Shown: positions 5,014-56,737 of the stretch, one piece after another | Layout: each line of letters starts with the position of its first letter | How positions within the stretch are numbered: position 1 is the first letter of the stretch | Origin: a virus | Length of the DNA: 56,737 bases | IMG/VR virus record: IMGVR_UViG_3300013099_000004 | Span: 1 to 56,737 of that record | Direction: 5' to 3' (one strand) | The notes under the pieces: generated by a model | What the model was told of the DNA's origin: nothing | The model's database searches: none | Seen by the model: the letters and a program-made list of their open reading frames with translations, nothing else | Position numbers and translations under genes: made by a program

Positions 5014-7533
5014 TTATCCTAGGTCTATCCACGATTTTGCTATTGCTATATCCACCTTCATAGGCACTTTTAAGTTATAGCAACTTTCCATAGTACTCTG
5101 TATTAACATGCTAGCTTCGTCAATATGCTCGTCCTGTACCTCAAATATGAGCTCATCATGTATCTGCATTATTGGCCTCATATAACCTACTGACTGGTAT
5201 ATTGGTGTTAAATCATTCATAGCTATCTTAAGTATTCCTCCTGCTCCAGATTGTATTGGTGTATTCCTGCAATATCTTACTCCTTGCTCGTATATTCTTG
5301 GGTCCTGTGAATATATCTCAGGTATATACCGTATTCTGCCAAACATGTCTCTCACATATCCGTACCTCTTAGCATAATATACAACATTTTTCATATACAA
5401 TGCAACACCTTTATACAAGTCGAACCATTCTTTTATCAGATTTTCGCATTCAGCTTCAGACCAGTCTTTAAGTCTAGCTGCAAGCCCTTTGCCTGTTATA
5501 CCATATAATACGCCAAAGCCTACTGCTTTAGCAGGCTTACGGTGTTTCTTATCATCAAGCTGTTGTAAGGGAATCCCGAATATCTTACTTGCAGTATATG
5601 CATGTATGTCCTCGCCATTTATAAATAACTGTATTAACTTCTCATCATTAGACACATGAGCTGCAACACGCATTTCTATTTGTGAATAGTCAGCACCTAT
5701 TAATGAGTACCCTTCAGGAGCTACGAACGCACCACGTATAGCTAATCCTCTTTTAGTACGTACTGGAATATTCTGCAAGTTAGGGTTCTTACTTGCTAAT
5801 CTGCCTGTAGCAGTACGTGTAATAGTAAGCTCAGTATGTAATCTGCTACTATCATCTATCTTATATTGTAATGGAGTAGTATATGTAGACACTAGTTTAT
5901 CTATCTCCCTGTATTTTAATATCTTAGCTACTACAGGATGCCTGTCTGTTTCTGCACGTAAGTATTTATCTTCTGTAGAATGTTTGCCGCTACCCCATAA
6001 CTTTAAGTCTTGCAGTAGTTTACGTACTTGGTCACTTGAATTAGGATTAATTATTCTACCTGCTGAGCTTTCTATATCAAGTAGTATACTATACATCTCA
6101 CTACGATACTCGTCGTCAAGGGTTTTTAATACTTCCAAATCTATTAAGAAACCGGTATTAATCATGTCAGATACCATCTCAATGATGCCTAAGTCAATAC
6201 GTAATATGTTATTAAGGTCTAACTTGTCTATCTTAGCACTCAATATTTTGTGTACTTGGTAGGTAACTATAGCGTCAAGACAGGCATAATGTATAGCATT
6301 ATTAATGTCAATATCGCTTAAATCGCCAATAGGCATTTCACCTAGCTCCCGCTCAACTACAATACGTTCTGCCAACTTGATATTATGCCACCTATCATAT
6401 GGATTTGCTCCCTTACTAAATACATCATGCAAGATACGTATTGCTTTTTTCTGTATATTCTGTGGTTGCTTATAACGTATCTCACCATTCTTAGTAATTT
6501 CCATTATTTTGTCTGCATTAGGCCATTCCCTGTTAGCTACCTCGCTAAGATAGTTAACTGCTTTGTCAAATGTAGCTGGTGTAATAGTATCCATGTATGA
6601 ATCCATTTTGATATTAAGTAGCCTGTATGCTAAATCTTTAAGGCCTTGAGGTTCTGTCTGTAACAAGTATGCCATGACCATAGTATCTGTAAACTTCTTT
6701 GGGAATATACCTACTGAATGTAAGTACGGTAAATCGGCAAGAGCATTATGCATTATTATAGTGCCATCATAATTATTAAGGTAGTCTCTGGTAACTTCAA
6801 GTACCTCAGTATTGTTAACTAGTATGAAGGCAGCATCTTTACCATCTAATGTAATCTGAATAGACCATAACTTGTTATTCATAAACTCAGTATCAAGAGC
6901 CATAAAATCGCCTGTATGAGACGTTTTATATTTACTGAAGTTTTCTAAGCCTCCTATACTGCTAACGTGGAGTTCGTTGAATCTAGCCCTGTCTATGGAC
7001 GTTCTGGGTACTAATTTGCCGTCCAATACGTCTCTTATAGCAGCATAGTCATTACGTGTATGCTGCAAGAAGCGGGTAGAACCGTGAAGACTAGCTGCAG
7101 GATGATATACAGGGATTATTATTCTACCACCTTTAAGCCAGGGAATGCCATGGTCTAATACCATTTTCACTTCACGGCCCAGAAGTTCTGAAGCTGCAAG
7201 ACGGCCTACTGCCACTATTACTTTAGGGTTGACCGTGTTAATTTCATATAGTAGTCTAGGACGGCAGCAAGTTATCTCCTCTGAGCTAGGGTCTCTATTA
7301 TCCGGCGGATGGCACATAACTATGTTAGTAAGGTAGCAGTCTGACTCATCTATACCTACCTTCAAGAGGAATTGAGCTTGGTCTCTGCCAGAGTCCCCTA
7401 CAAAAGGTATTCCCATGTTAGCTTCCTGACGGCCTGGAGCTTCGCCTATTATCATAATGTCGGCATTAGGGTTGCCTCTTGGGTTAATACGTTTCCTATC
7501 GTGTAATGTGCATATATTGCACTTAGGATTCAT
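5014..7533 (-). CDS. Fused uracil-DNA glycosylase (family 4-like) / 3'-5' exonuclease / family A DNA polymerase
   Basis: Replicative polymerase of 839 residues with three parts. (1) Residues 1-170 are a family 4-type uracil-DNA glycosylase: motif GEAPGRQEA at 30-38, GIPFVG at 41-46, the HPA motif at 144-146, and four candidate Fe-S cysteines at 5, 8, 74 and 89/90. (2) Residues about 205-400 are a DnaQ-like exonuclease with MALDTEF (Asp214, Glu216). (3) The polymerase has motif A around Asp615 (ADYSQIEMR), the O-helix at about 665-678 (RKPAKAVGFGVLYG) and motif C HDE at 792-794. All metal-binding residues look intact. GGAGG precedes the start. The unusual feature is the glycosylase joined to the polymerase. 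I recall a similar architecture in some phages (SPO1-like) but did not verify it. Confidence 0.95.
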   Translation of the reverse strand: MNPKCNICTLHDRKRINPRGNPNADIMIIGEAPGRQEANMGIPFVGDSGRDQAQFLLKVGIDESDCYLTNIVMCHPPDNRDPSSEEITCCRPRLLYEINTVNPKVIVAVGRLAASELLGREVKMVLDHGIPWLKGGRIIIPVYHPAASLHGSTRFLQHTRNDYAAIRDVLDGKLVPRTSIDRARFNELHVSSIGGLENFSKYKTSHTGDFMALDTEFMNNKLWSIQITLDGKDAAFILVNNTEVLEVTRDYLNNYDGTIIMHNALADLPYLHSVGIFPKKFTDTMVMAYLLQTEPQGLKDLAYRLLNIKMDSYMDTITPATFDKAVNYLSEVANREWPNADKIMEITKNGEIRYKQPQNIQKKAIRILHDVFSKGANPYDRWHNIKLAERIVVERELGEMPIGDLSDIDINNAIHYACLDAIVTYQVHKILSAKIDKLDLNNILRIDLGIIEMVSDMINTGFLIDLEVLKTLDDEYRSEMYSILLDIESSAGRIINPNSSDQVRKLLQDLKLWGSGKHSTEDKYLRAETDRHPVVAKILKYREIDKLVSTYTTPLQYKIDDSSRLHTELTITRTATGRLASKNPNLQNIPVRTKRGLAIRGAFVAPEGYSLIGADYSQIEMRVAAHVSNDEKLIQLFINGEDIHAYTASKIFGIPLQQLDDKKHRKPAKAVGFGVLYGITGKGLAARLKDWSEAECENLIKEWFDLYKGVALYMKNVVYYAKRYGYVRDMFGRIRYIPEIYSQDPRIYEQGVRYCRNTPIQSGAGGILKIAMNDLTPIYQSVGYMRPIMQIHDELIFEVQDEHIDEASMLIQSTMESCYNLKVPMKVDIAIAKSWIDLG

Positions 7534-14858: not shown

Positions 14859-15140
14859 TTACAAGTTGTTGTCTATTACTTCGTTCATAGCTGCAATACA
14901 TTCTTTTAATGTATAAGGATTACAGTTAAGGTCTGCTGCTACTTGGTTAATCTCTTCTTCGTCAAGGTCTTTGACACTCCAGTAATCTAGTTCCGTAGGA
15001 TAGTAGAAAGTATTATTGTATGGAATGAATCTAAACTTGTCGCTATAACCTATTACCATAATGTAACTATAATGCGTCATATCACCAGGCTCTGACTCTA
15101 TCTGGTATATTCTGTCATATACTTCCTTGATTACACGCAT
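14859..15140 (-). CDS. Small hypothetical protein, 93 aa
   Basis: Alpha/beta protein; N-terminal strands, acidic helix near DLDEEEINQVAADL. Good GGGAG site. No known motif. Confidence 0.7.
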   Translation of the reverse strand: MRVIKEVYDRIYQIESEPGDMTHYSYIMVIGYSDKFRFIPYNNTFYYPTELDYWSVKDLDEEEINQVAADLNCNPYTLKECIAAMNEVIDNNL

Positions 15141-15164: not shown

Positions 15165-15368
15165 TTAATCATTATCAAGCTTCCATTCCTCTATATCCCA
15201 ACTTGGAAACTCACTCTTCATACCTCCATAATACCATCTGGCTATATGTAACAATCTACGGTTATTACGCATTGATTTCTCATATAGTCTTGCTTGTCCT
15301 GAAGCTGCTATTACAGCCATACCTATTATACCTATTATAGTTCCTATTGTAAGCCCTATAAGTAACAT
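15165..15368 (-). CDS. Single-pass membrane protein, DUF3789-like, 67 aa
   Basis: The N-terminus is one hydrophobic helix (LLIGLTIGTIIGIIGMAVIAA) followed by a short charged cytoplasmic tail, the layout of the small phage/firmicute family DUF3789. Start at 15368 is set by GGGAGGTGA. The gene starts inside the 3' end of none of its neighbours but sits directly behind the phosphoesterase gene. Confidence 0.72.
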   Translation of the reverse strand: MLLIGLTIGTIIGIIGMAVIAASGQARLYEKSMRNNRRLLHIARWYYGGMKSEFPSWDIEEWKLDND

Positions 15369-18944: not shown

Positions 18945-19136
18945 TTAACTGGTTTTATCAGTATGCGGCTTTGTAATAGTTATTTGCCTGCGGCTGTATG
19001 TATCATATTCATCCATAGCCCATTTCATAACTTCTTTTAAAGTTGCTGTTTCAGGGAATATCTTTGTTTCTTGCCACATTTCACCAACAGTATCATTCCC
19101 TGCGCTTTTGTCAATTATTACTACATATTGTTCCAT
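18945..19136 (-). CDS. Small hypothetical protein, 63 aa
   Basis: Start set at 19136 by AAAGGAAA. Alpha/beta pattern: a strand (YVVIIDKSAG), then helix and a second strand (QITITKP). Lies directly downstream of the tRNA-like element on the same strand. Confidence 0.65.
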   Translation of the reverse strand: MEQYVVIIDKSAGNDTVGEMWQETKIFPETATLKEVMKWAMDEYDTYSRRQITITKPHTDKTS

Positions 19137-19161
19137 TTTATAATTTCCTTTCATATTTTAC

Positions 19162-19281
19162 GGGGCAACGGCAAGGACTCGAACCTTGCATTACATTTCC
19201 CGGTAGGCTAGAAGTCACCCTGCATGCATAGGCTGTAATCTGCTTCTAGTCAGTGCGTCTGCCGTTCCGCCACATTGCCCC
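19162..19281 (-). tRNA. tRNA-like element, atypical (amino acid not assignable)
   Basis: Reading the minus strand from 19281: a 9-bp closing stem GGGGCAATG/CGTTGCCCC (one T-G pair), a D-arm typical of Leu/Ser tRNAs (GCG, loop GAACGGCAGA, CGC), and a canonical T-arm (CAAGG TTCGAGT CCTTG, extendable to 6 bp). Between them no normal anticodon stem forms. There is a 3-bp CTG/CAG stem with 8-base loop ACTAGAAG, or a 7-bp CTAGAAG/CTTCTAG stem, plus ATTACA/TGTAAT closing about 50 bases next to the T-arm. No CCA is encoded. It could be a degraded tRNA, a tRNA with an insertion, or a tRNA mimic. Confidence 0.6.
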
Positions 19282-19309: not shown

Positions 19310-19552
19310 TTATCCATTAATTTTTATTATATATATATTTTTTTTTTCATCAAAATATTTCTCGCATTCATTTGCAAATTTTTCCAGTTTATGAAAAATT
19401 CTTTCGTGCTCTTCGTTCATTTCAGGACCAAAATAAAATTCGCCAAGATGAATAAAATACCCATCAACATCTAACCCTAATTCTACAATTTCATAGGGGC
19501 CTGCACTCTCGCAAAATCCAATTCTCGCTCCTTTAATCTTTCTTACGTCCAT
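19310..19552 (-). CDS. Small hypothetical protein, 80 aa
   Basis: Alpha/beta protein, acidic in the middle (FGPEMNEEHERIFH). AGGAGA precedes the ATG. First gene upstream of the tRNA-like element. Not recognised. Confidence 0.68.
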   Translation of the reverse strand: MDVRKIKGARIGFCESAGPYEIVELGLDVDGYFIHLGEFYFGPEMNEEHERIFHKLEKFANECEKYFDEKKNIYIIKING

Positions 19553-54744: not shown

Positions 54745-56737
54745 TGGCTTACAATGATAACATGATAAACCCTAATAAGTTATTAGACCATGCAGTAGCT
54801 GGTTATGATTACTATCATAGGCGATATGCTCCAGATAGGTCATTATTCACTGATGCATTTAACACTATTGCGTCAGGTGGTTTAGACTCAATTGAAATGG
54901 TAGCGAAAGCTTTAACAGCAGCAGGTATCCCAGCTGATGGTGTTGTAAGCTCTATACGTAAATACAAAGCATCAGTAAGCTGGGATGACCCTTCTAGAAA
55001 GTATTACGAAGATGGTGCAAGGCGCACTATAATGGATATATTAAGGTCAACAGCACAGAGTCTTGGTACTAGAAGCCTTGGTATAATAGCTGGTGGGGCT
55101 ATTGGGTTAGCCACTGGCGGTCCGGCAGGTATGATAGCAGGCGCTGCTGTAGGAGCTACTATTACAGGTGGTCCTATCTATGGCTTATCTACTTATTACG
55201 ACTTTATGGAAGACGCACGTAATCATGGTATTCCAGATAGTACAGTACGTAATGATGCTATTCTAGCTGCTGTAAGTGAAGGCGGGTTAGAAATGGCTTC
55301 AGACCTTATATTTGGTAGACTTATGGGCTTATTCGGCTCTGGTAAAGAAGCCACTAAATCGTTCATGAAATCACTTGCAGAAAAGACTACAGTAGGTCAA
55401 TTTACTAAAAAGTTTATGGTATCATATCTTAAGACCGCTGCTGAAGAGATCCCTACCGAACTAGCCCAAGATTATTTTAGCTATCATATCAGGAAGAATG
55501 CAGGATTACCTGTACCTCCGGACCTTGAAGAATCATTAAAGAATACTGCAATAGTTACGGCCGGTACATCAGCATTGTTTGCTCTTGGTGGTCTTGGTGG
55601 TTCAGAACTTCGTAAACGATACTTAAAGGCTAAACTAGATGCAGCTACCTTGTTAACGGAAATACAAAGTAATAATCCTGACTTCGATATAAACGATATT
55701 AACAAGATAGAACTTACTGAAGAGCAAGTAAATAAGGCCAGAGAAATTAATGATACCATGATGCTCGGTTATGATGAGTATATGAAATACATGGAGGATA
55801 TCGAGAAAGGAAGAAGAACCTTAGCTGATATGGTTGCTATAGCTAGTAGGTTTGGGCCTGTAATATTGTGGAATACAGATAAAACATTACGTAATCAAGA
55901 AGGAAGAGCAGTATTAGGCTCTGCATTTAAAGGGAGGGGGACTGTAGGAATACCGCACCCACTTATAATAGGGCATGAATTAGGACACCACCTCATATAC
56001 CATAACTTTATTAACTATAAAGGATTAGGGATACCTAAAAGCGAAATAATAGCTATAAGTAAGTTACACAGACGTAATGTATATAAGGCTAAGTACCCAA
56101 ACCTTAGCGATAAAGACCTTGATAAGGCTGTTGAAGAAGAAGCCTACAATGGCCAGAACGACTGGAAGTATGTAAAAGAGGGCTTAAGCGACTTTGTAGG
56201 ATTGTATTTATATAACCCTGATATAGTACGCAAATTAGCGCCTAGGGCATCTAGCTTAATAGGGGAACAAATAGACAGGATAACAAGAGACCCACAAGAT
56301 ACAGCTGAGGTTACTGCTCTACTTACTGCCTATAGTTCATTACAACATAAAACATATAGTAAATTTATGCAAGCCGATAAGCAAGGTAAAATTACTACTG
56401 ATAATATGGCTGTTCCTGATGTTGGCCCTGAAGCTTTAATGAATGACACAGCTACTGAGTTTGAAGATGTAATGAATATCTTAAAGAACGAGTACAATGT
56501 AGCTGACGACGCAACTGCTGGCTTTATGACTAACATAATATTAAGACGTGGCGGCTTACCAGAAGAACCTACTGCACGTAACAGATACATAGAACTGGTG
56601 AAGTGGTCAACAGATACAGCATTTAAGACTAAGGTCAAAGGTATAACTAATTTATTTAACCCATGGGTGTCAACACGTTACGGCTTTGCAGACCTTGAAG
56701 CTAAAACTGGTGTTGCAGGATTACATAAAACTGCTAA
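54744..56737 (+). CDS. Giant internal virion protein, N-terminal part with HExxH metalloprotease motif (joins 2..2455)
   Basis: Open to the end of the window; continues in frame through the repeat to base 2455 (1,441 residues). Residues about 112-145 and 271-290 are Gly/Ala-rich hydrophobic segments (GGAIGLATGGPAGMIAGAAV; TSALFALGGLGG) that could insert in membranes. Residues 411-416 are HELGHH, the HExxH zinc ligand motif (His411, Glu412, His415). A later acidic segment (Glu479, Asp483 in EGLSDFVGLYLYNP) could supply the third ligand. It is the last gene of the late operon and resembles phage polyvalent ejection proteins. Confidence 0.88.
   Translation, partial: MAYNDNMINPNKLLDHAVAGYDYYHRRYAPDRSLFTDAFNTIASGGLDSIEMVAKALTAAGIPADGVVSSIRKYKASVSWDDPSRKYYEDGARRTIMDILRSTAQSLGTRSLGIIAGGAIGLATGGPAGMIAGAAVGATITGGPIYGLSTYYDFMEDARNHGIPDSTVRNDAILAAVSEGGLEMASDLIFGRLMGLFGSGKEATKSFMKSLAEKTTVGQFTKKFMVSYLKTAAEEIPTELAQDYFSYHIRKNAGLPVPPDLEESLKNTAIVTAGTSALFALGGLGGSELRKRYLKAKLDAATLLTEIQSNNPDFDINDINKIELTEEQVNKAREINDTMMLGYDEYMKYMEDIEKGRRTLADMVAIASRFGPVILWNTDKTLRNQEGRAVLGSAFKGRGTVGIPHPLIIGHELGHHLIYHNFINYKGLGIPKSEIIAISKLHRRNVYKAKYPNLSDKDLDKAVEEEAYNGQNDWKYVKEGLSDFVGLYLYNPDIVRKLAPRASSLIGEQIDRITRDPQDTAEVTALLTAYSSLQHKTYSKFMQADKQGKITTDNMAVPDVGPEALMNDTATEFEDVMNILKNEYNVADDATAGFMTNIILRRGGLPEEPTARNRYIELVKWSTDTAFKTKVKGITNLFNPWVSTRYGFADLEAKTGVAGLHKTA
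56615..56737. repeat. Terminal direct repeat, right copy
   Basis: Exact copy of the first 123 bases. Removing one copy gives a 56,614-bp unit. The sequence cannot say whether the virion DNA has true short terminal repeats, is circularly permuted, or whether this is only assembly overlap. Confidence 0.97.

Follow-up and report, generated by a model that had tools for sequence, protein, structure and literature searches.

The stretch of DNA analysed here, referred to as the window, is a 56,737-nucleotide viral sequence (IMG/VR record IMGVR_UViG_3300013099_000004) that carries a 123-bp direct terminal repeat at its ends (1-123 and 56615-56737), and it is therefore probably a complete genome. It encodes a D5-type primase-helicase, a P22-like portal and an SU10-like capsid protein, together with a family A DNA polymerase that is fused to an N-terminal uracil-DNA glycosylase (UDG) superfamily domain in a single open reading frame (ORF; 5014-7533, minus strand). 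Shine-Dalgarno-like sites and relatives among Firmicutes phages indicate that the host is probably bacterial, and the phage could be linked neither to a named host nor to a named defence system. Within a cluster of small minus-strand genes, the spacer between an upstream ORF of 80 amino acids (19310-19552) and a downstream ORF of 69 amino acids (18945-19154), both on the minus strand and neither assigned to a family, holds a 120-nt element at 19162-19281. A preliminary description of this DNA had placed a tRNA-like element without a standard anticodon arm at this position, which is confirmed here for the minus strand.

In the 5' to 3' direction, the element consists of GGGGCAAUG-UG-GCGGAACGGCAGACGC, a middle, and GCAAGG-UUCGAGU-CCUUGC-CGUUGCCCC. 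The acceptor stem is formed by GGGGCAAUG (19273-19281) and CGUUGCCCC (19162-19170) over 9 bp, UG precedes a Leu-type D-arm that contains the D-loop GG (19255-19270), and the T-arm (19171-19189) combines a 6-bp stem with a standard T-loop. All of these parts lie on the minus strand, and the acceptor, D- and T-arms of a canonical tRNA are thus present. Recognisable arms and an unusually long acceptor plus T-stem had both been proposed from the sequence, and both hold, as the acceptor and the T-stem GCAAGG/CCUUGC form a continuous 15-bp stack. The nucleotide that follows the acceptor, at tRNA position 73, is G, and CCA is not encoded. The D-arm and the T-arm are 66 nt apart, and this interval lacks an anticodon arm, in which a 5-bp stem would close a 7-nt loop that bears U33. 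ARAGORN calls no tRNA at the element and an Rfam search gives no family match; neither program calls a tmRNA, no tag ORF was recognised, the UCA anticodon and extended D-stem of tRNA-Sec are absent, and no Rfam covariance model of a group I intron core matches. Since these searches are blank and the minimum free energy of the fold is by itself ordinary (z=-0.45), the case for the element rests on comparison.

Two helices can be drawn in the middle of the window element, again on the minus strand. Helix P2 pairs CUAGAAG (19243-19249) with its 7-bp complement CUUCUAG (19208-19214), and a second helix, which abuts the T-stem, pairs AUUACA (19234-19239), located within the P2 loop, with UGUAAU (19190-19195), the last U of which occupies the position of tRNA nucleotide 48. 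The two helices cross each other, and their joint occurrence has a p of about 0.009 against shuffled sequences, with about 0.10 for each alone. The second helix lies at an offset of 0 from the T-stem, where an offset of 2 is common in the class described below, and the middle of the nearest relative is unalignable as a comparison. The preliminary description had the anticodon stem replaced by a mini-stem with an 8-base loop; a 3-bp CUG/CAG stem closing the 8-nt loop ACUAGAAG is present at 19240-19253, however, it is not conserved in the nearest relative, therefore CUG(ACUAGAAG)CAG is probably not the real structure. A guide RNA directed at the phage's own genome was also considered for the middle and rejected, as its longest exact match elsewhere is 11 nt, the same as for shuffles.

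The nearest relative of the window phage (L002), the primase of which is 88% identical at the protein level, carries its element at the equivalent site, with 2 kb between it and the primase gene. The D-arm is identical at every one of the 15 nt that run from GGCGG to AGAC, and the T-arm together with the 3' half of the acceptor at 28/29 nt (97%), including an identical T-stem; the GCAAGG stem also occurs in L057. The acceptor differences between the two elements preserve pairing (A-U to G.U and U.G to C-G); if the D-stem is read as GCG/CGC, one of its pairs is lost. The middle of L002 is similar in length to that of the window, yet it is wholly different and unalignable, and it contains a second T-arm-like hairpin, GAUGG-UUCGACU-CCAUC. 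The flanking ORFs also differ, neither of the two that border the window element being shared with L002. Arms that are kept around a replaced middle are the opposite of decay. A degraded tRNA-Leu gene, one of the readings proposed earlier, would account for the Leu-type D-arm and for the resemblance of the loop ACUAGAAG to an altered Leu(UAG) anticodon loop, but a decaying gene would not be expected to retain the D-arm and the 15-bp stack in both phages alike. In addition, many lineages keep the arms with compensatory changes around a long, structured middle, and the layout recurs across many phages without the arms decaying, which contradicts this reading and makes it highly improbable.

Equally early, a functional tRNA with an intron had been suggested, and the spacing between the D- and T-arms is indeed about 30 nt too long for a tRNA. 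However, no cut that was considered leaves a 5-bp anticodon stem with a 7-nt loop, a group I intron would be much longer than the insert, the probable host is a bacterium, and the middles of close relatives are unrelated, so that this explanation is unsupported and least likely of all, alongside one further reading taken up below.

Exact patterns of the window T-arm and acceptor, or of the 5' half, found no homologue besides L002, and a blast search of the window element against phages returned no homologue of the element. A comparable element, in which the acceptor/T stack has the normal 7+5 pairs, is found in a more distant terminase relative (L009), and it gave the class pattern of a Leu-type D-arm, 46-76 nt and a T-arm. 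This pattern occurs in at least 120 IMG/VR contigs. In all, 123 elements were extracted and dereplicated to 102, of which the 94 with a clean T-stem were used for counts among the matches listed: 79 of the 94 have 7/7 acceptor pairs and 85 have U at nucleotide 48, while among the 84 elements with at least 6 acceptor pairs, 64 carry A at nucleotide 73. The D-arm positions are invariant in the class alignment (A9). Among the sampled IMG/VR elements the middle is 41-71 nt long, with a wider spread in Firmicutes members. With its Leu-type D-arm and T-arm, paired acceptor and over-long middle, the window element has the defining features of the class.

A covariance model (R1) was built from 25 members with the window and L002 left out, using only the acceptor, D- and T-pairs. 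Where Rfam and ARAGORN are blank, R1 finds the window element over a span of 117 nt with 45.3 bits (E=1.6e-9), and it finds the L002 element with 35.8 bits; no further significant match was obtained in the window or the L002 genome. Ordinary tRNA-Leu and tRNA-Ser are recognised by R1 as well, the matches listed from 31 cellular genomes spanning about 76-90 nt, therefore membership requires the long middle besides the score. Taken together, the structure and class membership of the window element are well supported, and judged from sequence comparison it very probably belongs to a class of anticodon-less tRNA-like RNAs.

Not all members are equally remote from tRNAs. Some exceed the RF00005 gathering score as a tRNA with a long insert (41.3 bits for L009), ARAGORN calls a few as odd tRNAs (e.g., L060 and L067), and a minority of the class may be unusual but functional tRNAs. 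Certain members sit within phage tRNA clusters, and some contigs with an element also bear many ordinary tRNAs, tRNA-Leu included, which indicates that the elements are additional to these. Apart from the members that score as tRNA, no Rfam 15 family describes the class, and no description of it was found in the open-licence literature, although it may have been described elsewhere. In cellular genomes the extended-gap pattern was found in 0/61, and a strict UGCAAAU extended-gap pattern, aimed at prophage copies, in 0/398 genomes of one phylum (that of a Ruminococcus MAG, which may exclude the Bacillus/Lactobacillus lineage). Candidates with other D-arm types are present in L038, L063 and L034.

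The preliminary description had named arms kept with compensatory changes in related phages as a supporting sign, and such changes were found, in the acceptor for SPP1/SPG24. They also occur in the helix that abuts the T-stem, with three compensatory pairs in L061/L142, two in L113/L143, and one each in H1-Guo/zrk29-2 and in the phi3T/Goe/SBSphiJ set, where three sequences stand each way; for the sets with only two sequences, sliding provides a more informative control than shuffling, which is weak. Furthermore, a helix with its 3' strand ending exactly 2 nt before the T-stem is enriched across the class, with 19 cases observed against 1.6 expected from shuffles at the strict threshold and 26 against 3.6 at the middle one. 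In L055/L063/L054 the T-stem-abutting helix and the crossing helix both covary, which supports a pseudoknot there. As a class-wide rule the pseudoknot was rejected, the crossing helix P2 not being enriched overall (median p 0.5), and UAAG was likewise dropped as a shared motif (38 against 32 expected). At the level of sequence, these comparisons show a paired acceptor that carries a tRNA elbow, composed of the Leu-type D-arm and the T-arm, and a variable domain in place of the anticodon and variable arms. They also show within this domain a T-stem-abutting helix that in some subfamilies forms half of a pseudoknot, and a pattern of change that marks the elbow and acceptor as under selection and the middle as structured and fast-changing. 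The middles have no common sequence across the class, hence a single shared function is not proven.

Matches to the D-arm led to members in named phages, where the element carries no tRNA annotation. These include SPP1 (between genes 9 and 11), phi3T, SPG24, BSP10, BSP9, SBSphiJ, Goe3/Goe24/Goe27, 010DV004, Leuconostoc Ln-9, Lactiplantibacillus H1-Guo, Enterococcus EG-TP1, Lacticaseibacillus R24.2, Bacillus KLEB27-1 and BUCT082, and Hujiaoplasma zrk29-2. The element has gone unannotated in SPP1, SPbeta-like phages, Herelleviridae of B. subtilis and many uncultured phages because tRNA finders skip or misname such genes. Members from Firmicutes phages typically have a 6-bp T-stem, the T-loop UGCAAAU, a 13-bp stack and a variable nucleotide 73, and the 15-bp stack was seen in the window and L002 only. 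The elements of SPP1 and Herelleviridae are 83-86% identical across about 88% of their length, which points to transfer between unrelated phages.

These settings bear on two further explanations. Integrases often use tRNA genes, and an integrase lies near the element in KLEB27-1 and in cyanophage SS120-1, as would be expected if the element were a phage attachment site that stems from the tRNA gene of a host. However, both halves of the element are present and paired with each other, acceptor sequences vary among phages with the pairing kept, and the B. subtilis Herelleviridae have the element, so that an attachment site is as improbable as the intron. A cis-acting processing or leader element, in which a tRNA-shaped site for RNase P and RNase Z would split a polycistronic mRNA and set the expression of the next gene, is unlikely but deserves more weight. 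RNase P and RNase Z require mainly the acceptor plus the T-arm, and the element lies between same-strand genes, the next listed start being 7 nt downstream in the window. Conservation of the D-arm, nucleotide 48 and the internal helices nevertheless goes beyond the needs of such a site, members are also found in tRNA clusters or in spacers without a close downstream gene, and the neighbours in L002 differ.

Among known RNAs, the class resembles bacterial tRNA-Leu (class II, RF00005) in U8, the Leu-type D-arm, U at nucleotide 48, the T-arm, a 7-bp acceptor and often A73, but it lacks the 5-bp anticodon stem with a 7-nt loop and the normal variable arm, and the window element has a 15-bp stack. 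An acceptor plus T-stem above 12 bp is shared with tRNA-Sec (selC; 13 bp, as in the Firmicutes members), which differs in its UCA anticodon and long D-stem and from the 15 bp of the window. Similarly to the class, tmRNA (ssrA) has a tRNA-like domain without an anticodon arm and contains pseudoknots; in contrast, the class has no recognised tag ORF, about one third of the length and a true tRNA-type D-arm. RNAs of tRNA-like shape without an anticodon arm are therefore already known from tmRNA. Species 1 RNA of phage T4 (rnaC; L158:1409-1547) is an unexplained stable RNA encoded in the tRNA cluster of that phage. Its T-arm is perfect and R1 matches it weakly (24.2 bits), but by eye it has no recognisable D-arm or good acceptor pairing. 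On the D-arm and acceptor, T4 rnaC and rnaD were rejected as members, and rnaC is perhaps a distant analogue.

The likeness to tmRNA is also what speaks for an RNA charged at its end, probably with leucine, that would be used by the ribosome or by a non-ribosomal transferase without codon reading. A73 is the main LeuRS determinant in bacteria, and it accompanies the Leu-type D-arm in the 64 of 84 IMG/VR members counted above among the matches listed. On the other hand, Firmicutes-type members vary at nucleotide 73 and have the T-loop UGCAAAU, nucleotide 73 of the window element is G, a tag ORF was not recognised, and neither Rfam nor ARAGORN calls a tmRNA, which leaves a charged RNA about as improbable as the cis-acting site.

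The earlier reading of the element as a tRNA mimic is supported by homologues that keep the D-, T- and acceptor arms, and the breadth of the class suggests a widespread, undescribed family of tRNA mimics in phages. The best explanation of the window element, held tentatively, is a non-coding RNA gene of this class whose product may mimic a tRNA and thereby engage a protein of the host. The element would be transcribed as part of its operon and, as with a tRNA, the host enzymes RNase P and RNase Z would excise it, so that it would build up as a stable free RNA. This RNA could then occupy a host protein that binds class II tRNAs through their elbow, acceptor or variable region, for instance a tRNA-cleaving defence effector. 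Such a mimic would present neither an anticodon nor a normal variable loop for cleavage, and an arms race would be consistent with the quick turnover of the middle. It is uncertain whether processing occurs at the predicted ends, given G73, the missing CCA and a 15-bp stack in place of the 12 bp expected by RNase P and EF-Tu. As far as sequence allows a choice, a decoy for a host tRNA-binding factor is favoured among the functions considered, although in absolute terms it is somewhat unlikely. For the class as a whole, it is conceivable, at a likelihood short of even, that an undescribed and very common type of phage non-coding RNA combines anticodon-less mimicry with a fast-evolving structured domain, acting as decoys against tRNA-targeting immunity or redirecting host translation factors. 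Phage tRNAs that evade tRNA-cutting defences are decoding tRNAs (PMC11555353, PMC13096335); they resemble the element in being phage-encoded, tRNA-shaped and associated with tRNA-rich regions, and differ in that the window element has no anticodon arm with which to decode. The occurrence of the class in tractable model phages makes non-decoding roles of phage 'tRNAs', including counter-defence, directly testable.

Several smaller observations accompany these results. In L002, positions 14913-14951 hold a second T-arm and acceptor 3' half (GCAAAATTCGAGTCTTTGCCGTTGCCCC) without its 5' half, and GGGGCAACGTG at about 15219-15233, some 270 nt downstream and in swapped order, resembles the missing half; the two are possibly a rearranged duplicate. 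A tRNA-like gene in L063 (6302-6421) has an insert with the T-arm-like GAGAGTTCGAGTCTCTC, comparable to the double T-arm of L002. Just downstream of position 1605 in SPP1 (L153) there is a second small structure with the T-arm GCGGGTTCAATTCCCGG inside an ACGGAC/GTCCGT stem, which is a T-arm-only tRNA-like hairpin. A CRISPR direct repeat (RF01320, 38.3 bits) is found at 38-74 of L009, 1 kb from its tRNA-like element. Finally, the related contigs L024-L028 and L030-L032 contain a 5' half of tRNA-Cys (GCA), made up of the acceptor strand, the D-arm and the anticodon arm. No T-arm follows, and this half is perhaps an attachment site.
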